Positions 2,281-18,460 of a stretch of 20,182 nucleotides of DNA are shown here, piece after piece. Within the stretch, counting starts at the first letter, position 1. The number at the start of each line of letters is the position of its first letter. The notes beneath the pieces are model-generated. The model had not been told where the DNA came from. It saw only the letters and a program-made list of their open reading frames with translations, and did not search any database. The stretch covers positions 1 to 20,182 of the IMG/VR virus record IMGVR_UViG_3300021364_001419; one strand, 5' to 3'. Position numbers and translations under genes: made by a program. This DNA comes from a virus.

Positions 2281-2681
2281 AGTTCGCCTTTTGCTCTCAT
2301 TTGTGCTCTAATTTTTGTAGCACTTATATTGTGCATCTCTTCACCTAAATCATGTTCTGTAAATGTATAACCTACACCGCGACCATAACTTATATCTACT
2401 ATGTTTGGCACTCTTGTTATAATATATTTGTCTGCGTATGCATAACCTTCTTTTGCAAGTTCTTTTTTTATGTTTTCTATGACATCAGTTGCTTGGAAAG
2501 GATTGTCATCTTGTATCATTGTTCTGCCGCCACTAGCATCTTCTGTTTGTGGTACAGTCCTAACCATAATATGCACTTGTCCTGTTTCGGCTAATGCACG
2601 TTTGAATAGTTCTGTATGTCCTTTGTGCCAAGGTTGCCAACGTCCTAGCATTTGTGTTGTAGGTGCAAAATCATTGAACAT
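2277..2681 (-). CDS. HxGH-family nucleotidylyltransferase (NMNAT/cytidylyltransferase-like)
   Basis: 134 residues. The N-terminal GRWQPWHKGH (13-22) holds the HxGH motif of adenylyl- and cytidylyltransferases, and ISATKIR (119-125) matches the C-terminal ISxTxIR phosphate-binding motif. Such enzymes join a nucleotide to a phosphorylated small molecule (NMN, phosphopantetheine, glycerol- or choline-phosphate). At 134 residues it is near the minimal single domain. It overlaps the kinase upstream by 11 bases and the glycosyltransferase downstream by 4, so kinase, nucleotidyltransferase and glycosyltransferase are coupled: a plausible activate-and-transfer pathway. An NAD-salvage role (NMNAT plus kinase, as in NadR) is an alternative. 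It is far too short for ATP sulfurylase. Confidence 0.8.
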   Translation of the reverse strand: MFNDFAPTTQMLGRWQPWHKGHTELFKRALAETGQVHIMVRTVPQTEDASGGRTMIQDDNPFQATDVIENIKKELAKEGYAYADKYIITRVPNIVDISYGRGVGYTFTEHDLGEEMHNISATKIRAQMRAKGEL

Positions 2682-3099
2682 TTTGTTTCCTAATATGTCT
2701 ATAGATAGCTTGAGTTAATGTCTCGTCGGTATTGTCAAACCATTCGCTTACATGATAGTCAACACGTTGCGGTTTTTCAAATATTTTGTTTGTATCTTCA
2801 AAATGACTATTATCAATAGTATCTAACCAAACAACATAGTCTGCTTCAAAAATGTGGCGTGTAAGTTTTGTAGGGCAAACAAAATCACAAATTACTGTTC
2901 TTCCGCAACCTTTTTCAAAGTCTGCTAAATTGCGCATACGCCTTGCCTGACGTATACGTGCTTCCTCGCTAAATTCCCAGTCATTTGCCTGCTTTCGGAC
3001 AGCGTCTGCATTATACCAAGCACAATCTAAATGCTTTTGTAACCTTTCAGCTAACCAAGTTTTTCCGCTGCCGGGCAATCCCATAATTAAAATTTTCAT
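2671..3099 (-). CDS. APS-kinase-like P-loop kinase
   Basis: 142 residues from the ATG at 3099; upstream in-frame codons would only extend into the previous gene. GLPGSGKT at 7-14 is a P-loop. NADAVRK at 30-36 followed by NDWEFS at 39-44 and ARIRQARRM at 47-55 parallels the D-x-DNVR / DLGFS / R-R elements of adenylylsulfate kinase, and DFVCPT at 72-77 occupies the place of its FISP motif; FEDTNKIFEKP at 100-110 follows. APS kinases phosphorylate the 3' hydroxyl of adenylylsulfate, but small phage relatives may act on other nucleotides or sugars. The gene starts one base after the QueD-like stop and overlaps the nucleotidyltransferase. No sulfotransferase or ATP sulfurylase is visible in this window, so a sulfation role is only a possibility. 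Confidence 0.75.
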   Translation of the reverse strand: MKILIMGLPGSGKTWLAERLQKHLDCAWYNADAVRKQANDWEFSEEARIRQARRMRNLADFEKGCGRTVICDFVCPTKLTRHIFEADYVVWLDTIDNSHFEDTNKIFEKPQRVDYHVSEWFDNTDETLTQAIYRHIRKQNVQ

Positions 3100-3100
3100 A

Positions 3101-3544
3101 CTACACTCTATAAATTGCTGAGTTTGCTCCGTGCTCTGCACATTCTACTTCAACACAACGACAACGACCATTTGTCATTTCACTTACAAGTTCATTAGCT
3201 TGTTTCCAAGCATGGTAAGCAAAACGCTCTACACCTACACCATTGAGTACTGTGAGTTCTGCAAGACCTTTTGCCTCCAAGTCTTTGAATGTATCCATTT
3301 CTGGATCATCCTTGTCCAATACAACTTTGTGATCAAAGTTATCTTCTAGCCAGGCTTTTAGTGGTTTAAGTCCACCAAAGTCAACCACCCAATTCTTTTC
3401 ATCCAGTTCTGTTGCAGAGAATGTGAATTTGAATTGCAAACTGTATCCGTGTAGGAATCTGCAATGTGAATGTGCTTTAGGTTGTCTAAAGCAGGCACTT
3501 AATCCAATGGCGTGCCCATATGTTTTTGTGCTATAATAAGCCAT
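3101..3544 (-). CDS. queD: QueD / 6-pyruvoyl-tetrahydropterin synthase family protein
   Basis: 147 residues, the normal length for the T-fold PTPS/QueD family. The metal and active-site regions are recognisable: ACFRQPKAHSHCRFLHGY at 17-34 (His25, His27, catalytic-type Cys28, His32), VVDFGGLK at 53-60, FDHKVVLD at 70-77 with His72, and VECAEHGANSA at 133-143 with Glu137/His138. Family members make 6-carboxy-tetrahydropterin for deazaguanine (queuosine) synthesis or tetrahydropterins. Oddly, the usual HGH zinc motif reads HGY, so one canonical zinc ligand is Tyr. No QueC, QueE or FolE is visible here. The start is secure: AGGAG stands five bases before the ATG. A tandem sigma70-like and late promoter precedes it, making it the head of a four-gene run. 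Confidence 0.85.
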   Translation of the reverse strand: MAYYSTKTYGHAIGLSACFRQPKAHSHCRFLHGYSLQFKFTFSATELDEKNWVVDFGGLKPLKAWLEDNFDHKVVLDKDDPEMDTFKDLEAKGLAELTVLNGVGVERFAYHAWKQANELVSEMTNGRCRCVEVECAEHGANSAIYRV

Positions 3545-5365: not shown

Positions 5366-5393
5366 TTATAACACAATTATGAATAATAGTCAA
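5366..5393 (-). promoter_or_regulatory. Sigma70-like promoter, TTGACT-16-TTATAA
   Basis: On the minus strand TTGACT (5393-5388) lies in the last codons of the SGNH-like gene and TTATAA (5371-5366) follows after 16 bases (TATAAG after 17). It sits 29 bases before the SWIM-gene ATG. The ten bases CTTGACTATT around the -35 are identical to those of the promoter at 703-708. Confidence 0.55.
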
Positions 5394-6102
5394 GTTCTTT
5401 ACACTTTTGATCTAAATAATCTTTCCAAGCAATGTGTGCATCTAATTTCAAATGCCAGCATTCTGTTTTTTCAAATCCTTTAGACAATCCCCAATACAAA
5501 AAGTTTTGATTTTTTGTTATAGGATGCAAGTATTTTTTTGTATCTAGTCTTTCAATGATGTCTTTATTGTTATAGGTTATACCAAGTTCTTCACAAGTAT
5601 TATACATCAGATACTTAACATTGTTTTTTTCTAAAAATCTTTGTAAATGCCAGGCATATGAAGCCCACATATCATATTCTTTTGTTTCTTCAAACAACAA
5701 AGGTGTAATACTATGAACTCGTTTGAATTCTTTACTGCTTGCTATACCAGGATCTTGACCAAGACTTATAGGAAAATACTTAGGATCGGCTTTTGCCATT
5801 GTAGTGTGAATATATTCAGACTCTTCTGGATATCTCAATTCCATACGGAAAGGTGATGTCCATCCAATTAGTACAAGGTAATCTTCATTTTTTTTCTTTA
5901 TACGAGTGAACCAATCTATGCAGGTTCTGTGTATGTATTCATTACTTCCTCCTGGCAAACTCAGGTTCATATATTTAAAATTATTTTTTTTTGCCAACAA
6001 AGCAGCATAATTATTTTGTAAATTAAAAAGACTAGATGATTGAATACCATCTAACATTGTTCCATAAGTGTGACTGCATCCAATAGCTACTAATGTTGTC
6101 AT
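5377..6102 (-). CDS. SGNH/GDSL-hydrolase-like protein (catalytic motifs present)
   Basis: 241 residues from the ATG at 6102; residues upstream of this Met lie in the previous gene. Block I is GCSHTYG at 8-14 with the nucleophile Ser10, block II/III corresponds to PGGSNEYIHR at 50-59 (Gly51 or 52, Asn54), and the C-terminal CWHLKLDAH at 215-223 supplies a block V-type His. SGNH enzymes are esterases or O-acetyl transfer/hydrolysis enzymes acting on lipids and glycans. Here it is the last gene of the radical SAM operon, so acyl removal or addition on the modified product is a reasonable guess. It overlaps its paralogue upstream as ATGA and shares with it IGW-x-(N/S)P near 79-84, DPKYF, and KYLMYN. 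Not secreted: no signal peptide. Confidence 0.7.
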   Translation of the reverse strand: MTTLVAIGCSHTYGTMLDGIQSSSLFNLQNNYAALLAKKNNFKYMNLSLPGGSNEYIHRTCIDWFTRIKKKNEDYLVLIGWTSPFRMELRYPEESEYIHTTMAKADPKYFPISLGQDPGIASSKEFKRVHSITPLLFEETKEYDMWASYAWHLQRFLEKNNVKYLMYNTCEELGITYNNKDIIERLDTKKYLHPITKNQNFLYWGLSKGFEKTECWHLKLDAHIAWKDYLDQKCKELDYYS

Positions 6103-6722
6103 TTTGATTTTAACTTTTCGTTTAATAAATTTGCAACACATTGTTGTCCTTCGAGTGTGTTGAAATCATAACCTAACTTTTTTACATATTTTTTTATATT
6201 AGCTTTGGGATTGTCTACCCCAATATACCGTGTTCTATCAATATGCTTGACCATATATAATGTGTATTCGTCCCAGCTGATTGAATTATCTATATTGTAC
6301 ATCAAGTATGGTATTTCTAGACTTTTCAAAAATTCTTGTACACTAACAACCAAATTGCACCATCTAATATTGGTTAAGTGATGGTCGGTGAGTATATGTT
6401 TCCATTTGTGTAATCTTTGAAAATCCATTTCAATTTCTTTGGTATTACTTCCAAAAACAAAGTAATTAGGATCATCGAACCCTGCAAAGAATTCTTTTTT
6501 AAAAACTTTTCTTAGCTGAATACTAGCAGGATTACTCCACCCAATTACAGGCAAAAAGTCTTCCTCTTGAGCTGCATATTTTGTTACTAACCTAAAAACA
6601 CTTTGTGGACCTGTAGTATTAGTGGTCAAATCTTTAAAATTGTATCCTAATTTTTGTGCAAGCAAATATGGAGCATTTTTTTCACCTACTAGTTTTTTAT
6701 CTCCAAATGCAACAATATCCAT
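6099..6722 (-). CDS. SGNH-like paralogue that has lost its catalytic residues
   Basis: 207 residues. By eye it aligns along its length to the SGNH-like protein encoded next: AFGDKKLVG (5-13) for AIGCSHTYG, TTGPQSVFR (36-44) for PGGSNEYIHR, VIGWSNPASIQLR (59-71) for LIGWTSPFRMELR, DPNYF for DPKYF, and IPYLMYN for VKYLMYN. The nucleophile Ser is replaced (GDK instead of GCSH) and no block V His is visible at the C-terminus, so it is probably a non-catalytic partner or binding subunit. The ATG at 6722 shares one base with the upstream stop (TAATG), and a GGAGG lies about 10 bases upstream inside the radical SAM gene. The paralogy is seen directly; loss of activity is inferred. Confidence 0.65.
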   Translation of the reverse strand: MDIVAFGDKKLVGEKNAPYLLAQKLGYNFKDLTTNTTGPQSVFRLVTKYAAQEEDFLPVIGWSNPASIQLRKVFKKEFFAGFDDPNYFVFGSNTKEIEMDFQRLHKWKHILTDHHLTNIRWCNLVVSVQEFLKSLEIPYLMYNIDNSISWDEYTLYMVKHIDRTRYIGVDNPKANIKKYVKKLGYDFNTLEGQQCVANLLNEKLKSK

Positions 6723-8047
6723 TACATATATTCCTCCATCCACGGAATATAATCCAAAATATTTACATTTCTAAATTTGTCACTTGCTTTGGTATTGTTA
6801 ATATACTTTTGCCAATCGCCTTCGTTTGGTTCTTCGTTAAGTTGATTTTTCAATCCTAAAATTGCATCTACTGCCCATTGTTCCCATTCTGGCAACCCTG
6901 CATTTTTAAATTTCACGTGTTGTTTTTCTAACATATCGTTCATCAATTCTTTACGTTCTGCTGGCAAATTTCTTATGTGCAGATTACGTGGATATTCTAC
7001 AATATTAAAATGTGGCAAACAATTTTGATAACCATGATTGCCCCAATCCCAAGTATAGTGCCAAGTATCATAATTTTCTTTACACCAGTCCAATACATTT
7101 GGTAAATCGTGTAAGTTCATTACACTAAGAGTAACGTGTGTATGCACAATAACACCTGTACGTGTTTTGCTAAACTCTTTGAGTTTTTCAATATTGCGTT
7201 TGATGATTTTCCACTTGCTAGGATATCTTACATAATATGCTAGATCCTCTGTAGCATCAATACTTAGACTTAGTACAACACCTTTAAATTTATCCCAAAT
7301 GTCCAACAGTCTATCTGGTATAGTTGTGCCGTTTGTATTGTAATGCAGTTCGATATTTTGACTCCAGCCTTGTTCAATAATGTGTTCTAACCAAGTGTAA
7401 TGTTCGTCAACAACCAAAGGTTCGCCACCAATAAAATTGATAATTTTTACATTAGGTAATACTTCATCAAAAAAGCCTTCTTCAAATGCTTTAATAAACC
7501 AAGGATCAGTGCTGCTTAACTTGCCTATTTTATATGCTGTTTCATCCCAATCTGTATGTGGCACTGTAGGACCTTCTTCGATCCATCTGTGGCTTGCCCA
7601 AGGATTGCAACTGCGACACTTTAAGTTGCAGACATTACCTAAACTGATATCTAAATACGTAATTGCCTGTGGATCTAGAAACCCATCTTCACTGACGTTT
7701 TGTAAACTTGTATCTATATGTTCTTCATAGATTTCATTTGATGTTTGTCTAAAACTGCGTATGCCATCTTTTTCAAGTTTGAAACACTCGGCACACCCTG
7801 CAGGTTGTTCTCCTTTTAACAATCCTTCTCTAATTTTCATTATTTCAGGATCATTGATAAATTCACTGAGATTCTGAGCTGCATTGACCTTATCATTGTA
7901 TTCTGGTGTATCTTGAAAATTTATACCTGGCATAAACTTTCTTGTTTCTTGTCTACTAAAACAACAGGGTCTGCTGCGTCCGTGTGGATGTGTGCTAAAA
8001 CTTTGCATAGCGTGATAGCAAAATGTATCAGGAGATGAGGTTGACAT
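6722..8047 (-). CDS. Radical SAM protein with N-terminal twitch-like Cys module (441 aa)
   Basis: The radical SAM core has C-x3-C-x2-C at Cys140, 144 and 147 (CNLKCRSC), SAM-binding GGEP at 207-210 and NTNGT after the third strand. Before it lies a Cys set typical of twitch-type auxiliary cluster modules: Cys10, Cys28-Cys29 and C-x2-C at 85/88. The enzyme would cleave SAM to a 5'-deoxyadenosyl radical, with a second iron-sulfur cluster aiding substrate binding or electron transfer; families of this kind often modify peptides, but the substrate is unknown. The C-terminus ends in NILDYIPWMEEYM, resembling the FPFLDYV and VFPEL tails of the sister enzymes. Its start overlaps the previous gene by 20 bases; a later Met would remove Cys10, so the 8047 start is kept. 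Confidence 0.85.
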   Translation of the reverse strand: MSTSSPDTFCYHAMQSFSTHPHGRSRPCCFSRQETRKFMPGINFQDTPEYNDKVNAAQNLSEFINDPEIMKIREGLLKGEQPAGCAECFKLEKDGIRSFRQTSNEIYEEHIDTSLQNVSEDGFLDPQAITYLDISLGNVCNLKCRSCNPWASHRWIEEGPTVPHTDWDETAYKIGKLSSTDPWFIKAFEEGFFDEVLPNVKIINFIGGEPLVVDEHYTWLEHIIEQGWSQNIELHYNTNGTTIPDRLLDIWDKFKGVVLSLSIDATEDLAYYVRYPSKWKIIKRNIEKLKEFSKTRTGVIVHTHVTLSVMNLHDLPNVLDWCKENYDTWHYTWDWGNHGYQNCLPHFNIVEYPRNLHIRNLPAERKELMNDMLEKQHVKFKNAGLPEWEQWAVDAILGLKNQLNEEPNEGDWQKYINNTKASDKFRNVNILDYIPWMEEYM

Positions 8048-9020
8048 TTTCTGGGCTCGCTTTACTTATATTAAAATCTGCTGCACAATGACAGTGTGTT
8101 TTAGGACAAACAATGGCTTCAGATAGTTTGATATCAAATTCACCTTGTACAATATTTCCTACTATTGGTCCAACTCCACAACTGGCTTGCTGTATTCTAC
8201 CATTTGGATGTATGTGCAAACTTTCGTGTATGTTGCAAGTCCATCCTTTAAAGAAGTTTTTACCCTCTGTAATTATAGCATTTGTATCTATTGCTTCTAC
8301 AGTATCGTCTTGATAATGCACTTTTGCCCAAGCATAGTTTGGTTCTTTGTGTATTGGAATCACTTGCTGTCTTGCACTGCTATTGGTTTTAAAAAAGTCC
8401 ATTTGCCACTGTTCTTTGTAAAAATATGGATCTGTACTAGGTCTTAATTCGTCATATACTGGTGCATACTCGATCATATAATTATCGCAAGTGTCTTTGA
8501 TTTTATCACCAAAGTCTACACATTGTTGAAAATGATCGTGATGCATCATTATACGACTACACAAATAATTTTTTTTATCTTGTAAAAATTTGTAACATTG
8601 TAAATATTTTTCTTCTTTAGTCCATTCAGCATGATAACTTGCAACAACATCTTCAAACAAGTGGTGATGTTTTTCCCACCAACTTAATGGACGGCTGAAG
8701 TTTGTATTGATTCCAACACAACTGCCAGGCCATTCAGCAATTTCTCTAAATTTTTCTACAACTGGAATGATACCTTTCCAAAATGTAGGTTCTCCACCAC
8801 TTAGATAAAGTTTAAAATATTTGTAACCTTTGTCCTTATAGTGCAACATAATACGCTCTAAAGTGGTTACAATTAAATCAATATCATCTTCGTTTTTATT
8901 ACGCCCGGCCCAATTCCATTCTGAACAATACGTACAACGGAAGTTACACCAGTCGTTTACTTGCCATACAATACTTACCCACTTGTCTTTAGCTGGTACA
9001 ATTGCTTTTATGTCTTGCAT
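8028..9020 (-). CDS. Radical SAM protein with C-terminal SPASM-like Cys cluster (330 aa)
   Basis: The core C-x3-C-x2-C lies close to the N-terminus (Cys25, 29, 32; CNFRCTYC) with LSGGEPTFW at 73-81, and there is no N-terminal twitch module. Instead the C-terminal part has Cys262, Cys281 and CPKTHCHC (Cys305, 310, 312) around a HIHPNGRIQQASCG segment, the usual SPASM/twitch position for auxiliary clusters. This is the architecture of peptide-modifying anaerobic sulfatase-maturase-like and RiPP enzymes, and also of QueE/MoaA-distant proteins. It differs clearly from its four twitch-first sisters and may act on the same substrate at another step. The ATG overlaps the upstream gene by 13 bases with GGAAA just ahead. 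Family firm, substrate unknown. Confidence 0.85.
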   Translation of the reverse strand: MQDIKAIVPAKDKWVSIVWQVNDWCNFRCTYCSEWNWAGRNKNEDDIDLIVTTLERIMLHYKDKGYKYFKLYLSGGEPTFWKGIIPVVEKFREIAEWPGSCVGINTNFSRPLSWWEKHHHLFEDVVASYHAEWTKEEKYLQCYKFLQDKKNYLCSRIMMHHDHFQQCVDFGDKIKDTCDNYMIEYAPVYDELRPSTDPYFYKEQWQMDFFKTNSSARQQVIPIHKEPNYAWAKVHYQDDTVEAIDTNAIITEGKNFFKGWTCNIHESLHIHPNGRIQQASCGVGPIVGNIVQGEFDIKLSEAIVCPKTHCHCAADFNISKASPENVNLIS

Positions 9021-10216
9021 TCTGTTTCCAATACATAATCTAAAAATGGAAAAATGTCACCAAATTTGTGTTTTCTATATTTGTCATTAATATTAATAAA
9101 CTGTTTCATTTTATTAATATTTTCAACAGAATATTTATCGGTGTTAAGTGTGTAGTTAATGATTCTTTGAACTGGGTCGGTATGTAGTTTTGTTTTTATC
9201 ATACGTAAATCATCAAGTGCTTTATGTCTTATTTCTTCAGGCCAGACACAACTGTGTATTTGATCAGGATGTTCAAGAAAGATAGGCACAAAATCTACAC
9301 GTCTAGTTTGTGTGCTTTCTAACCATTTAATCATTGGCGATACATCAAATATATTCCAAGCCTGATATACAAAATAAATTTTCAACTGTACTTTTTCAGG
9401 CAGTGTCATTGCTTTAGCAAAGTTTTCTTCTACCTTGTTCCAGTCTGTAGGATAGCGAATATACATATTATGTTCGCCGTGCCCGTCTATACTCATCTGT
9501 ATTTCACTTGCATCAAAGAAGTTTAATTTATCGTAAAATCCTTCTGGCCAAGTTGTCATATTTGTAGTCCAGGCAACATAACAACGATTATTTCCTACCT
9601 CTACCAATTTGTCTAAAACATATTGATTAGCCTGTATTAGTGTTGGCTCGCCGCCAGTCAAATACAATCGTTCTAGTGTAGGTGCTACCGCATCTACAAA
9701 GTCACGAAACTCTTGTGTTTCGTACCACTGCCAATCATGTTCTTCTACACTGCGTATTTCGTGTGCCCACTGGTTGTGTAACCACGTAGGCAAACGTTCC
9801 TTACTCATAATCTTTTTGCGTTCTTTGTAAATGTTGTCGCTGCTAACACTCCAACAACTGTTGCACTTTAAGTTACAGTGATTACCGAGCCGAAGTTCTA
9901 GGTGAGTAGGATTGCTATGCAATAATGGCGCTTTATAGTTAGCGTTTGCCCATTGCCTACTGCTTTCAAGACCTTTCCCTTCGTGCTCGTAGCAGCGACC
10001 ACATTCTTTAACAGGTTTGCCTGCCAACATATTTGCCCGTACATCCAGCATATATTGGCTGTTCCAAATATTTTTCCAATCTGTTTTACCTAATACAGCA
10101 TCTTTGCCATCTACTTGTATGTAATCTTCTCCATAAACATGACAGCAAAGTTTACACCTACCGTCTGTGTTTGTATGTACGTTTATAAATGGATAAACGC
10201 AATATGTATCAGACAT
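9008..10216 (-). CDS. Radical SAM protein with N-terminal twitch-like Cys module (402 aa)
   Basis: From ATG 10216 (an upstream in-frame ATG at 10243 lies inside the previous gene and is less likely; GGAAAATGGA precedes 10216). N-terminal cysteines: Cys6, Cys21, Cys24-Cys25, and C-x2-C at 72/75 (ECGRCYEHEGKGLES). Core: Cys114, 118, 121 (CNLKCNSC), LTGGEPTL at 186-193, then TTNMT and QMSIDG. The tail KFGDIFPFLDYV matches the family C-terminal pattern. It is flanked on both sides by other radical SAM genes with coupled starts, and its eight-base overlap ATGTCTGA with the upstream gene is identical to that between the two enzymes at 12365-14774. Likely a paralogue adapted to a separate step or substrate. 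Confidence 0.87.
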   Translation of the reverse strand: MSDTYCVYPFINVHTNTDGRCKLCCHVYGEDYIQVDGKDAVLGKTDWKNIWNSQYMLDVRANMLAGKPVKECGRCYEHEGKGLESSRQWANANYKAPLLHSNPTHLELRLGNHCNLKCNSCWSVSSDNIYKERKKIMSKERLPTWLHNQWAHEIRSVEEHDWQWYETQEFRDFVDAVAPTLERLYLTGGEPTLIQANQYVLDKLVEVGNNRCYVAWTTNMTTWPEGFYDKLNFFDASEIQMSIDGHGEHNMYIRYPTDWNKVEENFAKAMTLPEKVQLKIYFVYQAWNIFDVSPMIKWLESTQTRRVDFVPIFLEHPDQIHSCVWPEEIRHKALDDLRMIKTKLHTDPVQRIINYTLNTDKYSVENINKMKQFININDKYRKHKFGDIFPFLDYVLETECKT

Positions 10217-12365
10217 TCCATTTTCCTTTGCCTTGCCATTCATATTTGAAACTTAAATCTGTATCTCTAAATCTATAAAATTCTTTTTGGTGTTGCTTGA
10301 ATATTTCGCTATCAAACGCATTGTATGGATCTTTGCCTTTTTTGGCTTCATCACCTTTCCACGCAAGTTTTCTTGCACGTATTACTGCGTTACCGTTGTC
10401 TCTTGTAAAATCCATGATTGCCCATACAGGGCTCCAAGGATCTACACTCATTTTTTCTCTACCATCTTCAATCCAATACTTGTCATCCCAACTGTCGTAT
10501 TTGTCTTGTTGATAGTCCCACCAAAAGTCAGCCGTCCAATTACCTTCATCATCGATTTCAAAATCATATTCTGCATCAAGTGGTGCAGCATTTCTTGCAC
10601 CCCATTCTTCGTATTCCCAATCTTTTCTAAATTTAAGATTTAATTTGTAACCACCTTTGGTACGCCATAATATTCTCAAAAACGGCCAGATCTCATTCAC
10701 TAGACTGTCTGCAAAATTTCCAAGGTTTGGCTTAATAATATTATAGTCAAAATCTTCATAATTGTAAACCAAATCATTTAGTCTATCTGGTTGATTAAAT
10801 TCAATCTTGTAATGCTTTTGTCTTAAACTGTGCCTAGTAGGCAAACTACAGATTTTATCTGTCTGTAGAAAATCTGTAAAAATGCTAAAACTTTTCATTT
10901 TAATAAGTTTATGAACAATGCTTGCACGTAAATCTTTTGTAATCCAGTGATCATAGTAATAAAATGGCATTAGATTAAATTTGTTGAAGTTTTGTCCTAC
11001 AATGGTATCTACGCCTACACTAAATCCAGTGCCCTGACTCACCGCAATCAATCCTTGATTACGAATACGCCATAAAAATGTAAGTGTATCTTCTAATTCT
11101 TTTGGACCTTCGTTTGGAAAGCCTACAATCCAATTGGTCATTGCATCTACACCGGCAGCGTGTCCGTCACGGAAATTAGCTTCCATTTCTTCGACTGTTA
11201 CTTTTTTATCCATTGCATCAAGCACAACCTGACTGCCACTTTCAATGCCGTAATTTAAAACTTCACAGCCTCCTGCTTTTAAATCTTTGTAATATTCTGC
11301 ATCCATTCGTCCGTCGCACCTTGCATAACCTGTCCAGTGTATATCCAATCCTTTTTCTGCAACACCTTTTACAAATCCACGCAGTTCATTGAGATTACCG
11401 TTTACAAGACTGTCAATAAACCAAAACACATTTGTACCGTGTTCGTAGTACATATGTTCAATTTCGTTTAGTGTACTCAGTGCATTGCGCTGACGATATT
11501 TCCAAAAGTGAGTTTCTTCACAGAATGTACACTTGGCAATACAGCCACGTGATATTTCACACAATGCTCCGTTTGGAAACTTGTACTTGCTGAAATCAAA
11601 ATCACTGTAGTCAGGTAAAGGTAAAGTACTTAAATTGTAACGTTGATTTTCTGGCTGTCTTACAATTTTACTAACTGCATCTTCGTTGTATTCAATTGAC
11701 TTTTGATTTTCAATACTTGCAAGCATTAACAACAATGGTTGTTCGCCTTCGCCGTTCACAACATAATCGTAAACTTCTTCACCTTTGTAGTAACTTGCGT
11801 GAGTAGCAGGTCCGCCTACAATAATTTTAACATCCGGCATACGTTTTTTAATTTCTGTAGCCATCCATTTGCAAGGCTCTTCATTGCAATAATACAAACT
11901 AAAGCCAACTACATCTGGATTGAACTTTTCCATTTCGTCAATGTACTCTAACAAAATAGGCTTGAGATGTTCGTGTATATCCTTATAATATTCGTCTTTA
12001 TACCAATGCCAATCACGCAGCGGATTCCAAGGATCAAATGGTATGTCCCATTTTTCATTCAAAAATCTACTGTAACTTTCTACATTGATATCAAAACTTT
12101 TACACGCATATCCTGCACGTTTAATGGCACTGGCTAATTTTGCAACATTATATGGTGGAAAACTAGGATCCCACTCTGGTAGCAGTGCAAGACATACTCG
12201 TGTTTTCCTATTAACATCATATTCAATTTGCAATTCTTGTAAACCTTTTTGCACAGGCTTACTGTACTGTTGGATTACTTTGAGAGTTGCAACGTGTTTG
12301 TCTTCCATAAAGTCTGGTTTTTGAGGCTTTTCTCTTTCAGGGTCTTTGTATTCAAAAAATCCCAT
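10209..12365 (-). CDS. B12-binding-type radical SAM protein (718 aa)
   Basis: The largest gene. An N-terminal Rossmann-like region (VCLALLPEWDPSFPPYNVAKLASAIKRAGY at about 57-86, PDVVGFSLYY at 150-159, VKIIVGGPATHAS at 179-191, VVNGEGE at 202-208) has the layout of cobalamin-binding domains, and the radical SAM core follows: SRGC-x3-C-x2-C at Cys275, 279, 282, FIDS at 317-320, NYGIESGS at 371-378 and MTNWIVGFP. The DxHxxG motif that coordinates cobalt is not seen, as in many class B relatives (BchE, P-methylase and MiaB-like Fe-S oxidoreductases), so B12 use is uncertain. About 280 further residues form a charged, Trp-rich C-terminal part of unknown role. The ATG has GGAGGA upstream and shares a TAATG with the preceding gene. 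A methylation or cyclisation step is possible. Confidence 0.85.
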   Translation of the reverse strand: MGFFEYKDPEREKPQKPDFMEDKHVATLKVIQQYSKPVQKGLQELQIEYDVNRKTRVCLALLPEWDPSFPPYNVAKLASAIKRAGYACKSFDINVESYSRFLNEKWDIPFDPWNPLRDWHWYKDEYYKDIHEHLKPILLEYIDEMEKFNPDVVGFSLYYCNEEPCKWMATEIKKRMPDVKIIVGGPATHASYYKGEEVYDYVVNGEGEQPLLLMLASIENQKSIEYNEDAVSKIVRQPENQRYNLSTLPLPDYSDFDFSKYKFPNGALCEISRGCIAKCTFCEETHFWKYRQRNALSTLNEIEHMYYEHGTNVFWFIDSLVNGNLNELRGFVKGVAEKGLDIHWTGYARCDGRMDAEYYKDLKAGGCEVLNYGIESGSQVVLDAMDKKVTVEEMEANFRDGHAAGVDAMTNWIVGFPNEGPKELEDTLTFLWRIRNQGLIAVSQGTGFSVGVDTIVGQNFNKFNLMPFYYYDHWITKDLRASIVHKLIKMKSFSIFTDFLQTDKICSLPTRHSLRQKHYKIEFNQPDRLNDLVYNYEDFDYNIIKPNLGNFADSLVNEIWPFLRILWRTKGGYKLNLKFRKDWEYEEWGARNAAPLDAEYDFEIDDEGNWTADFWWDYQQDKYDSWDDKYWIEDGREKMSVDPWSPVWAIMDFTRDNGNAVIRARKLAWKGDEAKKGKDPYNAFDSEIFKQHQKEFYRFRDTDLSFKYEWQGKGKWNV

Positions 12366-13573
12366 TACTGTATTCCTCCTAATTCTGGAAACACTTCGAA
12401 CACATCTTCTTGTCTAAGTTTATCTACTTTGAAAGTTTTAAATAAAAACATTTTTAACTCTTCTGATCTGTCGTCATTGATAAATTTTAATATGCTTTCG
12501 TAATCGTTTTTTACGTGATTGATATTATCAAACTGTTCAAGATACTGCAAATGTTCGCTGTATCTTTTTCTAATTATATCTTTCTTGTGTTCAGGCAAAA
12601 TACTCAAACGCATATATGTTGGATCAAGCAAAATATTGATACGGATATTTTGTGGTTCTAGTAGTCCTTCTTCAACCCACTCTTTGTGAAAGTCTGGAAG
12701 ATTAAGCACATTGTATACACTCACAGTAGGAGTAATTTCAAAATACACTTGAGGACACTGTTCTATCATATCTCTACGATTCTGCACAACTGTGTCCCAA
12801 ATCATATTTTTACGTAGATATTCACCTCTTTGATGATTTGCATCCAAACTGGCAGCAACTCTAACTTTGTCAAAACTATTCCAATACTCAAATGCTGTTT
12901 TACGCTTGTAACGCATTTGTGTAAAGTTTGTGGTATAATCCATGGCAACATCACGTTTGCCCATTTCGATCCATTTATCAAGGATGCGATAATGTTCTTC
13001 TGTGATAAGAGGTTCGCCTCCTGCCCAATAAACACGTTCCACGCTTTCAAGTAATGGTTCAAGTTCATCCATAAAACTTTTCATTTCGTCACGAACTTTT
13101 AAAATTTTAGGATGTGTTAATTCGCCGTACATTTGTTTGTGATCTTCAAACCAACTGCTGCTAAATTGTGGACCACAACTGCGACATTTGAGATTACACA
13201 GATTGCTAAAACGGATATCCATATAAGCCATATTAACATCGCCTGCACTACCGTCGTCACTGGTATCCATAACTTTTTGCCAATGCTGTTCAGCAAAATT
13301 ATTGATACTGCTTGTACGCAGTGTTTGCATTCCGTTTTCTTCTAACTCGTAGCATCTTCTGCATTCTTTGCTTGGTTCGCCTTGCAACATATTCATTCTA
13401 ATTTGTCGCATTTGGCTGCCGTTCCAGATGTCTTGCAAACTTTGTGTTTGTGTGTTTCCTATTGGATGATCTGGATCGCTCATACAACACGGATAAGTAA
13501 AACCCGCTGGCCACAGATGCATATGTACCCAAGGCATCATACAAAAGTGTTTGTTATTTTTTATTTCAGACAT
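12365..13573 (-). CDS. Radical SAM protein with N-terminal twitch-like Cys module (402 aa)
   Basis: N-terminal module: Cys11 in FCMMPW, YPCC at 27-30, and C-x2-C at 71/74 (ECRRCYELEENG). Core: Cys126, 130, 133 in FSNLCNLKCRSCG, and WAGGEPLI at 183-190. The C-terminus DVFEVFPELGG is typical of this family. It is a close paralogue of the next enzyme upstream (same 402-residue length; DIRFSNLCNLKCRSCGP against DVRFSNLCNMKCRSCGP), which points to a gene duplication. The start overlaps the upstream stop by the eight bases ATGTCTGA, with AAGGA five bases before the ATG. Chemistry as for radical SAM enzymes generally; the substrate could be a peptide, sugar or nucleotide and cannot be read here. Confidence 0.88.
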   Translation of the reverse strand: MSEIKNNKHFCMMPWVHMHLWPAGFTYPCCMSDPDHPIGNTQTQSLQDIWNGSQMRQIRMNMLQGEPSKECRRCYELEENGMQTLRTSSINNFAEQHWQKVMDTSDDGSAGDVNMAYMDIRFSNLCNLKCRSCGPQFSSSWFEDHKQMYGELTHPKILKVRDEMKSFMDELEPLLESVERVYWAGGEPLITEEHYRILDKWIEMGKRDVAMDYTTNFTQMRYKRKTAFEYWNSFDKVRVAASLDANHQRGEYLRKNMIWDTVVQNRRDMIEQCPQVYFEITPTVSVYNVLNLPDFHKEWVEEGLLEPQNIRINILLDPTYMRLSILPEHKKDIIRKRYSEHLQYLEQFDNINHVKNDYESILKFINDDRSEELKMFLFKTFKVDKLRQEDVFEVFPELGGIQ

Positions 13574-14774
13574 ATAAATCCTTAAGTTCTGGAAATACCT
13601 TTAAAAAGTTTTCGCCTCGTTTCATATCAAGTAATTGCATTTGTTTTCTAAATTCGGGTATTAAATGTGTATCATCACTATTATACATAAAATTAACAAT
13701 ATTGTCGAGTCCGTTATGCAAAAATTCTTTACGCTGTGGATACATTTTCATTTGGTCTATATCTTGCTTTAGTAAATCAATATTTGTTTTTGCAAGATTT
13801 TTTAAATGCTCTGGTAATATAGTGCAACTTAACCAATCTGGGCCAACCAGTAGATTACTTAAATTTATATCATAATCTGTAGGAATATCATGTTCAAAAA
13901 GATAATTTACAATATATCTCAGATCAACTACATTCAATGCACTAATAGTAGGGTTTGGTTGTATGACTACACCTTTTTCATAACTGTGTTCAAAGTTATC
14001 ACGTATCCAGCATAGATTTGTAAACACTGTATCCCAGCTTTGCCCAGCTCTTGTATATTCTGCTTTAGATCCTACCTGGTCCAAACTTACACAATAAAAA
14101 ATCTTATCAAAGTGTTGCCAATAGTCTTTTATGTGTTTGCCTTTTAGGCTTAGACGTGTGGCGTTACTGTTGTATGTCAGTCTCGGTTTGAGTCCACGCT
14201 CTATAAGCATATCTAGCAATCTATAATGCTGTGGCATAAACAAACTTTCGCCACCTGTGAAATATATTTCTTCTATAGTAGGAAGTACTTCTTCAATTTC
14301 TTCCCACATATCTTGGTGGTTGATTTCTACAACTTCCGGTTTACCATTAATATCTTCGGCCCATTTACTGCTGAAGTGCGGACCACAACTACGACATTTC
14401 ATATTACACAAATTGCTAAAACGCACATCAAAGTATGCAAGATTCATTTGATCTACAGTACCATCTTCCTGTGTAGTTTGAACAAGATCGTAGTGGTGGT
14501 TGTATTCTGTGTTGAATTTGTGTCTATAACTAATAATGCCTTGCTTGTCATAGTTAATACATTTTGCACAACCTTCACTGGGTTCGTTTGCTAACATACG
14601 CAATCTCAGTTCACGCATCTTTTCACTATTCCAAGCACCTTTGATTCCACTGCGATTAATGTTATCAACTGGCATATCCCAATGATAGATACAGCATGGA
14701 TAAGCATCTCCGGTTTGCCAAACACTCATATGTGTCCAAGGAGCCATACAAAAGTTTTCTTTGAATTTAGACAA
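13566..14774 (-). CDS. Radical SAM protein with N-terminal twitch-like Cys module (402 aa, TTG start)
   Basis: Cysteines: Cys9 in FCMAPW, YPCC at 25-28, C-x2-C at 69/72 (GCAKC), core Cys123, 127, 130 (CNMKCRSC). The SAM-amine motif reads GGES at 174-177 instead of GGEP. The tail is NFLKVFPEL. The start is TTG at 14774-14772: GAGG lies five bases upstream, two bases separate it from the preceding stop, and the first ATG would remove the conserved Cys9. It pairs with the 12365-13573 enzyme as a recent duplicate. It follows the glycosyltransferase-like gene directly and is the first radical SAM gene of the run. Confidence 0.87.
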   Translation of the reverse strand: MSKFKENFCMAPWTHMSVWQTGDAYPCCIYHWDMPVDNINRSGIKGAWNSEKMRELRLRMLANEPSEGCAKCINYDKQGIISYRHKFNTEYNHHYDLVQTTQEDGTVDQMNLAYFDVRFSNLCNMKCRSCGPHFSSKWAEDINGKPEVVEINHQDMWEEIEEVLPTIEEIYFTGGESLFMPQHYRLLDMLIERGLKPRLTYNSNATRLSLKGKHIKDYWQHFDKIFYCVSLDQVGSKAEYTRAGQSWDTVFTNLCWIRDNFEHSYEKGVVIQPNPTISALNVVDLRYIVNYLFEHDIPTDYDINLSNLLVGPDWLSCTILPEHLKNLAKTNIDLLKQDIDQMKMYPQRKEFLHNGLDNIVNFMYNSDDTHLIPEFRKQMQLLDMKRGENFLKVFPELKDLYV

Positions 14775-14776
14775 TA

Positions 14777-15937
14777 TTACCTCGTTGCTTTCAATAGTTT
14801 ATTTTCTATGTCCAACCAACTGATTTTTCTATTGTAAAAGTTGTCATAGTTACTATATAATTTATCTATAAATTTTTGATCAAATTTATTTTTGTAACTC
14901 TCGATATCAGTATACTTTATTTTGCTTAAAAAATTACTCGATTCATCAAAATTCTCTACAGATTCTGTTTCAAAAAAATCTTCAAATGTGTGATATCCAT
15001 TTTCACGCAACAACCAATGATGCTGTTTATTTCCAATAATAAAAAAAGGATGACAATGTACAATAGCTTTGAATGTTTTTTCAGTTAAAAATGTATATCG
15101 AAAACTGCTTTCTGTAACAATACTAAACAAACTATCATCATAGTATTGTAGAATACTGTTGTTGTAATTGATAGGATCAGCACTTAATTTGTCAAGTTTT
15201 CTTCCTTCATACGTTTTGTTCAAAAAATTCTCGTATTCTGGGTGTAACGATCTTGGCACATACTTCATTACAAAAGTACTTTTAGACAACGAGTTATACA
15301 TTTCGATATCCAATAAAGGCAGATGATAACTTGTATGAGATTGTTTAAGCATTTTCAATCTATACAAATTAAAATAGAACCAAATCCTATGTGCTTTTTG
15401 ATTGCGATTCAAACACAAAAACTTTTTTTGTGCATCAAGATTAACTTGTCGTCTATCAGTTGCATTTGCTAAAAACCTTTGATGATATCTTGTAAAACTT
15501 TCCCAGTAGTCAATATAAAGAAACTTCAATCCAAATTGATTTTCTAAATGTGTATAACAACTTGTTAATGTAATAACTTTATCTTTGTTTATACGTTGTT
15601 TAGATAATTCTTTGAATAATTTTGCGTGATCAATTTCGCCTTCTAATATACTAATTAATACAAGAAACGTATTAGGATCTTTATTGATTTTTTCAATAGT
15701 AGGAAAATTAAGTTTCAGTTTGTAAGTTACTGGCATATTTACAGACAACATAATGAATTTTTTGTCTGCATCGATTTTGTCAATCCTATTTAAATTGTAA
15801 AAGTTTCGAAAAGAAAAATCATCAAAATGTCCAAACATATTTTCCAAACTGAATCCTTGATCAATAAATTCAGTTTCCAAAGCTGTTTGTCCAAATGGAT
15901 AAGATTTTATATTAGCTAGAAAGAAGCCGTGAGTCAT
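14777..15937 (-). CDS. Glycosyltransferase-like protein (386 aa)
   Basis: 386 residues. The informative part is C-terminal: KKFLCLNRNQKAHR at 171-184, then FSIVTESSF at 271-279, FLTEKTFKAI at 283-292, HPFFIIG at 296-302 and LRENGYHTFEDFF at 310-322. This order, a Glu-rich strand, TEK-x-(F/Y)K and a proline-containing P-F-(I/F)-(I/V)-G loop, resembles the nucleotide-sugar binding half of GT-B enzymes (exostosin and GT10-like families) seen in marine phages. No known catalytic residue can be assigned with certainty. It stands just before the six radical SAM genes and may decorate the same product. There is no clear Shine-Dalgarno; a perfect TATAAT ends five bases before the ATG, so its mRNA may be leaderless. 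Confidence 0.6.
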   Translation of the reverse strand: MTHGFFLANIKSYPFGQTALETEFIDQGFSLENMFGHFDDFSFRNFYNLNRIDKIDADKKFIMLSVNMPVTYKLKLNFPTIEKINKDPNTFLVLISILEGEIDHAKLFKELSKQRINKDKVITLTSCYTHLENQFGLKFLYIDYWESFTRYHQRFLANATDRRQVNLDAQKKFLCLNRNQKAHRIWFYFNLYRLKMLKQSHTSYHLPLLDIEMYNSLSKSTFVMKYVPRSLHPEYENFLNKTYEGRKLDKLSADPINYNNSILQYYDDSLFSIVTESSFRYTFLTEKTFKAIVHCHPFFIIGNKQHHWLLRENGYHTFEDFFETESVENFDESSNFLSKIKYTDIESYKNKFDQKFIDKLYSNYDNFYNRKISWLDIENKLLKATR

Positions 15938-15942
15938 ACTCT

Positions 15943-15971
15943 ATTATACAACAACTATTTCTTTTTAGCAA
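15943..15971 (-). promoter_or_regulatory. Candidate promoter, TTGCTA-17-TATAAT
   Basis: On the minus strand a consensus TATAAT (15948-15943) follows a weak TTGCTA (15971-15966) by 17 bases, inside and just after the end of the nucleotidylyltransferase gene. The start point is predicted at about 15937, the A of the next ATG. It would uncouple the glycosyltransferase/radical SAM operon from the four-gene block upstream. Confidence 0.5.
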
Positions 15972-16545
15972 GAAGTTTCTCTCTGTGTGGTTCCAAGTAC
16001 TTTGCAACCATATCAAAGAAGGTAATATCTTCACCAGGTACATCTATCATAGTATCTGCTGGTACACCTGCTGCGTTAGCAAACTCTTCTGGACTGTTAT
16101 CCAACACTGCTTTGCGTAAATCTGTTGCACTTGCTAGTCTTTCGGTTTTAACCCATTCAATTTCTTTGAAATTGAATAATCCGTGTGGCCCTTCCTGGCC
16201 GTTGTATTTTGGTAAACTATCAGCAACCCATTTCTCGTCTGTATATAATCGTAGTACAGCATTAGGATGCTTGGCATAGACTTCTGCTGCTAGTGTATAC
16301 CAACTTTGACTAAATTCTATATGTCCTTTTGCCTCTGGCATAATAGTTTCCATGGCTATCTTTTTTACTTGAGATGGCAGCGGATCTTTAGGTCCTATTG
16401 TCGCTGCATTTGTTCCAATATACCAATGGTCATTAGTTGCTGCCTGTTTCCAAGCTGCTTTGTGTCCTTTGTGTGGAGGATTAAATCTACCAAATATAAG
16501 TCCTACTGTTTCTTGTGGTGCTTCAAATAACTGTCTTAATCTCAT
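15955..16545 (-). CDS. HxGH nucleotidylyltransferase with capsid-targeting-like leader
   Basis: 196 residues. GLIFGRFNPPHKGH at 15-28 contains the HxGH motif, and ASATDLR at 138-144 takes the place of the ISxTxIR motif. Together these define the nucleotidylyltransferase superfamily (NMNAT, PPAT, cytidylyltransferases). It is unrelated in detail to the 134-residue enzyme at 2277-2681. The first residues MRLRQLFEA match the pattern of T4 capsid-targeting leaders (M-K/R ... L/I-x-E|A) that direct internal proteins into the prohead and are cut by the gp21 protease after the Glu. If so, this enzyme would travel in the virion and be injected. The ATG shares a base with the upstream stop (TAATG). 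Enzyme class firm; packaging is inference. Confidence 0.82.
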   Translation of the reverse strand: MRLRQLFEAPQETVGLIFGRFNPPHKGHKAAWKQAATNDHWYIGTNAATIGPKDPLPSQVKKIAMETIMPEAKGHIEFSQSWYTLAAEVYAKHPNAVLRLYTDEKWVADSLPKYNGQEGPHGLFNFKEIEWVKTERLASATDLRKAVLDNSPEEFANAAGVPADTMIDVPGEDITFFDMVAKYLEPHREKLLAKKK

Positions 16546-17342
16546 TATACTGTTCCAAATACTGTTTGACCAATCACTTCTGCATCAGCAGATTTTCTCA
16601 TTTTGTGCATAAAGGCAATGTTAGTGCCACGTCCATATGCACGAGGATTGTTACTGGTAAAATTAAGCCAAGATTTATTCATATCTGGCAAATATTTTAT
16701 TAATGCTCCTACTACTTGAGCTGCTGTTTGCTCACTCATTCCTGAGAAGTTTCTGCTAGGGCCAGGATCATATCTAGTACCTGTCACTGCCTGAAATTGG
16801 TTACGCTGCGTTAACACTCCTTCAATCGTATTAGGATATCTATTGCTTTTCACTCTGTTTAATATAACTGCGGCAACGGCTGCTCGTTCTTGTGCATTTG
16901 GACTTGCTTCTGCTGCTGTTGCACGTAATAATAAATTCAATTCTCTGTCGTCAATTTCGTCGCCTAAAAATTGTTGTACAACTTCTTTGGCTTTTCCGGT
17001 ATTTTGTAACGAAGCTACATCTCCTAAATCTGCACCTCCTGCATCATTACCAGTATCTGTAGGATTTTTCACAGGGTTTTCAGTTGCCATCGCTTTAAGC
17101 TCAAAAAGACTTAAATTAGATCCGTTACCAGGAAATCCAAAATCCTTTTTAAATGCTGCAACTGCACGAGCAGTACGTGGTCCAAATTTTCCATCTATAC
17201 CTGTACTACCTACACTGTATCCTAAATGTTCTAATCTTGCTTGTACTTTTTTAACAAAGTCTATTTGTTCGGAAGGAAAAGGAGGACCTTGTTCTATACC
17301 ATTGCTAGGATCAAATGCTTCGTTTATTTCACTAAATCTCAT
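16545..17342 (-). CDS. SleB-type cell wall hydrolase with peptidoglycan-binding domain
   Basis: 265 residues from the ATG at 17342, which forms an ATGA overlap with the upstream stop. A leader MRFSEINEA (1-9) is followed by a peptidoglycan-binding type 1 domain (about 26-70: VKKVQARLEHLGY, GIDGKFGPRTARAVAAF). After a Gly/Asn-rich linker comes a SleB/CwlJ-like hydrolase domain (about 136-263): LLLRATAAEASPN with likely catalytic Glu145, AAVAAVILNRVKSNRYP, and NQFQAVTG. Such enzymes cleave peptidoglycan glycan strands, as lytic transglycosylases. As a phage protein it could act in lysis or in wall penetration at infection; the capsid-targeting-like leader would favour virion association. There is no Sec signal peptide. 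Confidence 0.85.
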   Translation of the reverse strand: MRFSEINEAFDPSNGIEQGPPFPSEQIDFVKKVQARLEHLGYSVGSTGIDGKFGPRTARAVAAFKKDFGFPGNGSNLSLFELKAMATENPVKNPTDTGNDAGGADLGDVASLQNTGKAKEVVQQFLGDEIDDRELNLLLRATAAEASPNAQERAAVAAVILNRVKSNRYPNTIEGVLTQRNQFQAVTGTRYDPGPSRNFSGMSEQTAAQVVGALIKYLPDMNKSWLNFTSNNPRAYGRGTNIAFMHKMRKSADAEVIGQTVFGTV

Positions 17343-18460
17343 GACGGCGTCCATCTTTTTCTTGGAACAAGTTTTACATTGCCGAATTTTTTATCACCAC
17401 CATAGCGGACACGACCTTCGCCGTTTGTGTCCCAAATGTCTCCTTGTTCGCCTTCTACTTGATCAATGACTTCGTCTTTCATACGTTGTATCATTTTTAC
17501 AAGTTCTAATATTGCTGCAATTGCTTTTGTACTTTGATTTAGTTCAGCAATTTTTGCTTGCTTGGGTTTACTTACTTTGCTGCTACCTAACCATTGGAAG
17601 AAATGTTGTTCGCTGAGACTGTCCAATTGTTTTGCTTTTGCTGTTTGGTTTACATAGGTGTAAATTATATTTTTTAAATCACTCAGTCCGGGCACACTTG
17701 CTAAAAATTCATCGATTTTGGATCCGTGTGTTTTTACAAATGATTCAACTTTATCTATAGCTGCTGTGTTTACTTTTACTGGTTTTGTATTGTATACTGG
17801 TCCTAAAACAATTACATTTGAATTACCATTGAAGGCACTGAAGTCTTGCATAGGTTCTTGTGAACTATCAGGCATACCAAATTCTGGAAAGTATGCGTGT
17901 CCAACTACCATTATATTGGCTTGTGCAATCTGTCTGCCCAATTCGCTGTCTGCTTTTACGTGATAGCAGGTTTTGCTTTTTGGATTAGGACAGAATGTAT
18001 ACACACCATTTTCTTCTGCTGGTTGATCTAAAAATAATCCATCTGCATAAACATAGCCTACAAAGTCGCTTGGTGTTGCACGATCAAATTCATCATACAA
18101 ACCTGCAAATTTGTTGCCGAACTCTTTACGTGCAGCAACTTCTTCTGGAGTTTTAGGATTGCCAGATTTGTTTATAATAAAATCGGCAACTTCTTCAGCA
18201 CTTGTAGCAGCCGCACCTTTTGCCCAAGCATTGTGTCCTGCTAATACAAGTGGGCCGCCTTTTTCTGCTCTACCCCAATATATTTGAGGGTTACCATCCC
18301 ATTTCATACGTATGCTGTTGCTACCTTCTTGTGTAGCAAAATCTTTAAGATGCTCTAGAGCTTCTATAGTTCCTTCGCTGCCGTAGAAAAACACAAGATC
18401 TTCTAAGTGGTTAAACGCTCTACCTAATTGTTTGGCTTCTATTAGTTCTTGATATCTCAT
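17339..18460 (-). CDS. Ligase/nucleotidyltransferase-like protein with KWDG motif and capsid-targeting-like leader
   Basis: 373 residues. The leader MRYQELIEA closely resembles the T4 internal-protein leader core (YQEFIAEA). HLEDLVFFYGSEGTIEALEHL follows (18-38), then IRMKWDGNPQIYWG at 50-63, in which K53-W-D-G is a candidate motif I of the DNA/RNA ligase-capping superfamily (KxDG with adenylated Lys). FVGYVYADG at 133-141 may be motif III and TFCPNP-x4-CYHV near 155-168 motif IV. This layout matches a conserved T4-like phage family I associate with DUF6267. A role as a polynucleotide ligase or other AMP-transferring enzyme is inferred from motif I. The C-terminal half is Lys-rich and helical. 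ATGA overlap with the upstream gene. Confidence 0.75.
   Translation of the reverse strand: MRYQELIEAKQLGRAFNHLEDLVFFYGSEGTIEALEHLKDFATQEGSNSIRMKWDGNPQIYWGRAEKGGPLVLAGHNAWAKGAAATSAEEVADFIINKSGNPKTPEEVAARKEFGNKFAGLYDEFDRATPSDFVGYVYADGLFLDQPAEENGVYTFCPNPKSKTCYHVKADSELGRQIAQANIMVVGHAYFPEFGMPDSSQEPMQDFSAFNGNSNVIVLGPVYNTKPVKVNTAAIDKVESFVKTHGSKIDEFLASVPGLSDLKNIIYTYVNQTAKAKQLDSLSEQHFFQWLGSSKVSKPKQAKIAELNQSTKAIAAILELVKMIQRMKDEVIDQVEGEQGDIWDTNGEGRVRYGGDKKFGNVKLVPRKRWTPS

Follow-up and report, generated by a model that had tools for sequence, protein, structure and literature searches.

What might lead a phage to carry six radical SAM (rSAM) enzymes in a row? Enzymes of this class are costly and oxygen-sensitive, and those with auxiliary clusters are best known as peptide modifiers. 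Nevertheless, many phages keep six of them under strong purifying selection. In the window analysed here, which is the whole of an IMG/VR virus fragment of 20,182 bases, the list of open reading frames (ORFs) gives a contiguous minus-strand block from 15937 to 5377 made up of a glycosyltransferase-like gene (GT), six consecutive rSAM genes (6722-14774) and an SGNH pair, transcribed in the order GT-rA-rB-rC-rD-rE-rF-SGNH1-SGNH2. The first-pass annotation had described six rSAM genes in a row with junctions overlapping or within two bases, and both descriptions hold: the six are recognized by matches to PF04055 or NF033640 together with conserved cluster cysteines and, with mechanically assigned starts, the junctions range from overlaps of 43 bases to a gap of 2 bases at the widest. 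Promoter scanning gave scores no better than those of shuffled sequences.

Multi-rSAM phages are already known, from reports of 2017 and 2020 that gave the genes no function. The T4-like phage genome TARA_ERS488813_N000010 has 12 rSAM genes together with Fe-S carrier genes (PMC5332604), and the host-recognition cluster of pelagimyophages has rSAM cassettes in the tail-fibre region with glycosyltransferases (PMC7029224). The likeness to the present case is that of T4-like environmental phages with rSAM genes, but the excerpts of these two reports give gene content and describe no fixed order, GT-B or SGNH flanks, subfamilies or mechanism, and our literature searches found no proposed function for multi-rSAM phage gene sets. 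What is new here is a fixed operon with defined subfamilies, together with the folds of its esterase and glycosyltransferase, the sister loci in bacteria and a cultivated test system.

Cluster ligands and folds of the operon proteins

Four of the rSAM proteins, rA (13566-14774, 402 aa), rB (12365-13573, 402 aa), rD (9008-10243, 411 aa) and rF (6722-8047, 441 aa), belong to the NCBIfam family of twitch domain-containing rSAM proteins (NF033640), with scores of 361.9, 404.1, 295.8 and 323.3 bits that exceed the curated cut-off of 170 bits by 125-234, which bears out the earlier reading of four N-terminal twitch-like modules. When PF04055 is run against the window DNA it matches five of the six rSAMs; rD scores 28.5 bits, just below the cut-off of 29.5, while lying far above that of NF033640, and in rA both PF04055 and PF13186 are above cut-off. 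The cysteine ligands of all six rSAMs are 96-100% conserved (25-32 orthologs each); rA, rB, rD and rF each have seven cluster cysteines, four in the twitch module and three in the CX3CX2C motif, which are 96-100% kept per ortholog set. These four proteins share with the NF033640 family an auxiliary-cluster module at the N-terminus, ahead of the rSAM core, but the family has a name and no known reaction, and here four distinct subfamilies of it are joined by two other rSAM types in one operon.

A profile of rB orthologs aligns, at E 1.9e-4, with the auxiliary-cluster domain at the C-terminus of BtrN, the four cysteines being in register. BtrN, NeoN and HygY are rSAM enzymes of aminocyclitols and aminosugars in which this module is C-terminal, whereas in rB it precedes the barrel, so that the order of parts is swapped relative to BtrN; the twitch part alone aligns, and the substrates may differ. 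Highly conserved cysteines that are not ligands occur in rB (C273, in close orthologs), rD (C221) and rE (C154), and by analogy these are candidates for the hydrogen-donor role described in NeoN and HygY (PMC10991966).

The remaining two rSAMs are of other types. As first annotated, rC (10209-12365, 718 aa) is a B12-binding rSAM protein, with a cobalamin-binding Rossmann domain ahead of the rSAM core, scoring 38.7 bits with PF02310 and 61.6 bits with PF04055, both above the gathering scores. Its relatives by sequence in the PDB are TokK, CysS and a tryptophan-C2-methyltransferase; it reaches no NCBIfam cut-off, its best score being with a RiPP C-methyltransferase model, below cut-off. rE (8028-9020, 330 aa) is above the gathering score of PF04055 and is not a member of NF033640 (23.4 bits). 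Its C25, C29 and C32 and its C-terminal C262, C281, C305, C310 and C312 are invariant in 46 orthologs. The Pfam SPASM model has no match to rE, and the SPASM-like character noted earlier is one of C-terminal cysteine pattern only.

On either side of the rSAM genes lie faster evolving proteins. GT (14777-15937, 386 aa), the first gene of the operon, matches no Pfam family above cut-off. Its AlphaFold model (pLDDT 82) retrieves in Foldseek top PDB folds that are nearly all GT-B (Gap1/Asp1, OtsA, exostosins, BshA), with a best E of 3e-4 and low TM-scores of 0.36-0.43, and this predicted fold gives moderate support to the view that it is a GT-B glycosyltransferase with two Rossmann-like domains, in keeping with the annotation of a glycosyltransferase-like gene in front. 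SGNH2 (5377-6141, 254 aa) is above the cut-off of PF19547 (DUF6071), and its AlphaFold model (pLDDT 91) confirms a predicted SGNH esterase fold: Foldseek places CE2 carbohydrate esterases and TesA at the top of its matches (E down to 1.7e-5), and acetyl xylan esterases are also among them; it would be an SGNH/GDSL-fold esterase or acyltransferase. Its G-[CD]-S nucleophile is intact, and in the alignment (A7) His236 is invariant and Ser23 almost so. The second half of the supposed SGNH pair fares differently, since SGNH1 (6099-6743, 214 aa) has FGDKK in place of GDS in block I (FGCK and FGDE also occur), and the serine is absent from close relatives too. It finds no family match in profile searches, and we regard it as a degenerate SGNH-like protein from its position and its weak similarity to relatives of SGNH2.

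Conservation and surroundings of the cassette

Viral loci were collected by searches with rB (24), rC (22) and rE (65), in partly overlapping sets. The genes GT-rA-rB-rC-rD-rE-rF are contiguous in 17 of the 52 distinct contigs scored, not counting the window, and an SGNH gene follows directly after rF in 14 of these 17; in the other scored contigs rC is absent, the cassette is cut by a contig end, or the order is rearranged. rC is also absent from several otherwise intact related cassettes. The identical order in 17 other viral contigs rules out a chimera or chance assembly, and a check of gene order in other viral contigs, which the first-pass annotation had recommended, thus finds the operon to be neither chimeric nor lacking in conservation.

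Among close relatives the median identity of the rSAMs is 71-82%, as against 40% for GT, 26% for SGNH1 and 44% for SGNH2, and the omega of the rSAM genes is 0.015-0.10, a rough estimate with synonymous sites near saturation. Strong purifying selection thus acts on the rSAM genes, which rules out recent pseudogenes, while GT and the SGNH genes on either side evolve quickly. When 114 twitch proteins are placed in one tree, rA, rB, rD and rF fall into separate supported clades, each extending across phages. Hence they are old paralogs that are not interchangeable, and recent tandem duplication within the operon is ruled out. Thirteen cassette-bearing viral records have 5-14 rSAM matches each, and some of the contigs exceed 200 kb.

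The rB subfamily is shared with bacteria: its relatives include 74 bacterial loci, and the wider group takes in proteins of Bdellovibrionota, Elusimicrobiota, Bacteroidota and Planctomycetota. In Bdellovibrionota (L116-L118) rB-like and rE-like genes are adjacent, the rE homologs being about 40% identical; the idea that rE is confined to phages, which had arisen when 84,980 genomes were scanned by pattern (not exhaustively) and no relative came up, was dropped on account of these homologs. The annotation had also pointed to host glycan loci, and one such relative emerged, in Bacteroidota (L136), where an rB-like gene adjoins a carbamoyltransferase amid an ABC transporter ATPase, a GDSL protein, an epimerase, a UDP-sugar dehydrogenase and a PhyH enzyme, a gene content that reads as a polysaccharide locus. 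Many twitch loci in bacteria stand alone or have mixed surroundings, so that the family is not bound to glycans only, and the Pfam tally of bacterial neighbours, being so mixed, does not on its own prove a glycan role. One Bacteriovoracaceae locus (L121:6028-18024) is a cluster of eight twitch rSAM genes, all but one on the same strand, without obvious glycan genes.

In the freshwater-type phages the cassette is preceded by a tail fibre whose end is Peptidase_G2-like and by GT-like genes (recognized by sequence motifs, with no Pfam match); after it come SGNH genes, a carbamoyltransferase and an APS-kinase/cytidylyltransferase-like pair. The window has this pair as well, on the minus strand, assigned by family and synteny: an APS-kinase-like P-loop kinase (2671-3141, PF01583 above cut-off) that recurs beside related cassettes, and its cytidylyltransferase-like partner (2277-2681, PF01467 above cut-off), which is fused to the kinase in some other phages. 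The window also has a QueD-like gene (3101-3544, minus strand). The cultivated Vibrio phage K566 has four twitch rSAMs in the company of two GT8 genes and one GT4-like gene (GT4 below cut-off), and the Vibrio phage rSAM cluster lies near a gene annotated PagP. When the 109 neighbours in related phage cassettes are tallied by Pfam family, most of the multiply matched families belong to nucleotide-sugar metabolism or sugar decoration; the tally includes sugar C-methyltransferase domains, UDP-Glc/GDP-Man dehydrogenases, carbamoyltransferase, NAD-epimerase, RmlC, DegT aminotransferase, Stf0 sulfotransferase and mannose-6-P isomerase.

Among the relatives of the window is G001 (134 kb), in which an A-type Fe-S carrier (PF01521) and a 17-kb run of very large tail-fibre-like genes come after the cassette region; a NifU-domain protein is encoded elsewhere in the contig. 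PF01521 is found in 7 of 17 cassette-bearing records, and tblastn with the G001 protein, run on 50,697 phage records, finds it in only 11, of which several seem to be bacterial; this suggests that the carrier is enriched in cassette phages, with the profile and tblastn differing in sensitivity. A pelagiphage origin was considered and rejected, since the G001 clamp loader has its nearest match (55%) in the PA5oct group of Pseudomonas jumbo phages. The same contig has genes reading as cytochrome c oxidase subunits at about 33989-36892 (in L191, which covers G001 20001-40000), and curli-like, GAPDH, NrdA and KAPA-synthase-like genes elsewhere; these are either unusual cargo or a sign of mixed assembly.

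A proposed glycan-tailoring mechanism and its rivals

We put forward a hypothetical function for the operon, namely that it is a phage glycan-tailoring cassette whose product is placed on tail fibres or on the host envelope, a proposal to which we give an even chance of being right. The substrate, each reaction, the order of the steps, the acceptor and the benefit are those we would expect from the gene content. The GT-B enzyme would transfer a sugar, assembling the glycan, and rA, rB, rD and rF together with rE would act successively on sugar carbons by dehydrogenation or epimerisation, in the manner of BtrN, NeoN and HygY. Where present, rC would C-methylate, SGNH2 would remove or move an acyl group, and SGNH1 may be its non-catalytic partner. 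The product would then be displayed at a site of host recognition, for which we slightly prefer the phage tail fibres to the host envelope. The proposal is supported by the conserved order, the GT-B and SGNH folds, the sugar enzymes among the neighbours, the relative in a polysaccharide locus, the twitch module that aligns with BtrN, the strong selection on the rSAM genes, the four twitch rSAMs beside GT8 genes in a cultivated Vibrio phage, the lack of a precursor-like ORF between the rSAM genes and the tail-fibre genes near related cassettes; it should be noted that proximity to tail fibres may just mark a hot-spot for cargo. The pathway had been suggested to be complete, and it is the modification rather than the completeness that gains support, on the grounds of the folds and the sugar-related neighbours and locus, since several related cassettes lack rC and the window operon has no nucleotide-sugar synthesis gene, so that the sugar would need host or distant genes as its source. 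A glycan on a structural protein, which is the end product that we propose, has a counterpart in mycobacteriophage virion glycosylation (Freeman 2023, cited in PMC12619734), but no rSAM enzymes are known there, and here the virion glycan is a proposal from genes. A more specific version, in which six non-redundant rSAMs build a radical-tailored sugar on the phage's own tail fibres, aided by a phage Fe-S carrier, in widespread aquatic phages, is tentative, and we rather doubt it.

The same tail-fibre genes near the cassettes of relatives would also suit a mechanism in which the rSAMs crosslink, epimerise or methylate a phage structural (or host) protein, as RiPP enzymes do but with a large substrate, and GT and SGNH then decorate it. 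Auxiliary-cluster rSAMs are classic peptide modifiers, and the below-cut-off RiPP model that scores best with rC points the same way, but the auxiliary enzymes of related cassettes are sugar enzymes and the cassette has no precursor-like ORF. Specifically, the window has none between its rSAM genes, as the first-pass annotation had said of the operon, and no room for one; in related cassettes the ORFs that lie between rSAM genes and reach 50 aa or more include none that is precursor-like and encode SGNH, methyltransferase, SnoaL-like or unassigned proteins. The RiPP reading is thus disfavoured, and we consider modification of a protein unlikely. A conserved ORF of about 101-117 aa lies upstream of the cassette in the freshwater-type phages (L013-L029, L096, L099, L114), between tail-fibre-like and GT-like genes, with no Pfam or PHROG match in L015; it was rejected as a RiPP precursor on account of this position and its absence from the cassette of the window clade.

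Remodelling of the host surface only, with LPS or capsule altered against superinfection or against receptor-bound progeny and the virion unaffected, has in its favour the twitch rSAM in a bacterial polysaccharide locus and the PagP-annotated gene near the Vibrio phage cluster, and it has been proposed for pelagimyophage glycosyltransferases, in a genome region able to hold rSAM cassettes (PMC7029224). We nevertheless judge it improbable. The rSAM core is 71-82% conserved and GT and SGNH are not, a pattern that fits one self-contained product with variable acceptors better than enzymes working straight on quickly varying host glycans, and that slightly favours tail fibres over a host glycan. 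Hypermodification of phage DNA through QueD, kinase, GT and rSAM steps is very improbable: it would give a role to the QueD-like gene at 3101-3544, and virus-encoded glycosyltransferases are known to hypermodify DNA (Pyle 2024, as cited in PMC12619734), but the conserved core includes neither QueD nor the kinase, which many relatives lack or have elsewhere, DNA modification does not usually involve SGNH proteins, carbamoyltransferases or sulfotransferases, and no hydroxymethylase was recognized beside the cassette. If the tailoring of virion or host-surface sugars that we propose is true, it would add a new layer to the contest over phage-host recognition and be a source of new carbohydrate enzyme chemistry. 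With the cultivated Vibrio phages K566 and K567, in which four clustered twitch rSAM genes lie next to genes for glycosyltransferases, the question is testable now.

Upstream of the operon, three minus-strand genes (15955-16545, 16545-17354 and 17339-18460), the first and third of which are conserved in most of the relatives listed, encode proteins whose N-termini follow the pattern M-R-x-x-x-[LI]-x-E-A (MRLRQLFEA, MRFSEINEA after four residues, and MRYQELIEA). These starts resemble the capsid-targeting sequences of T4 that are cut by the prohead protease, and the cytidylyltransferase-like, endolysin-like and DUF6267 proteins encoded at 15955-18460 may be packaged in the head.
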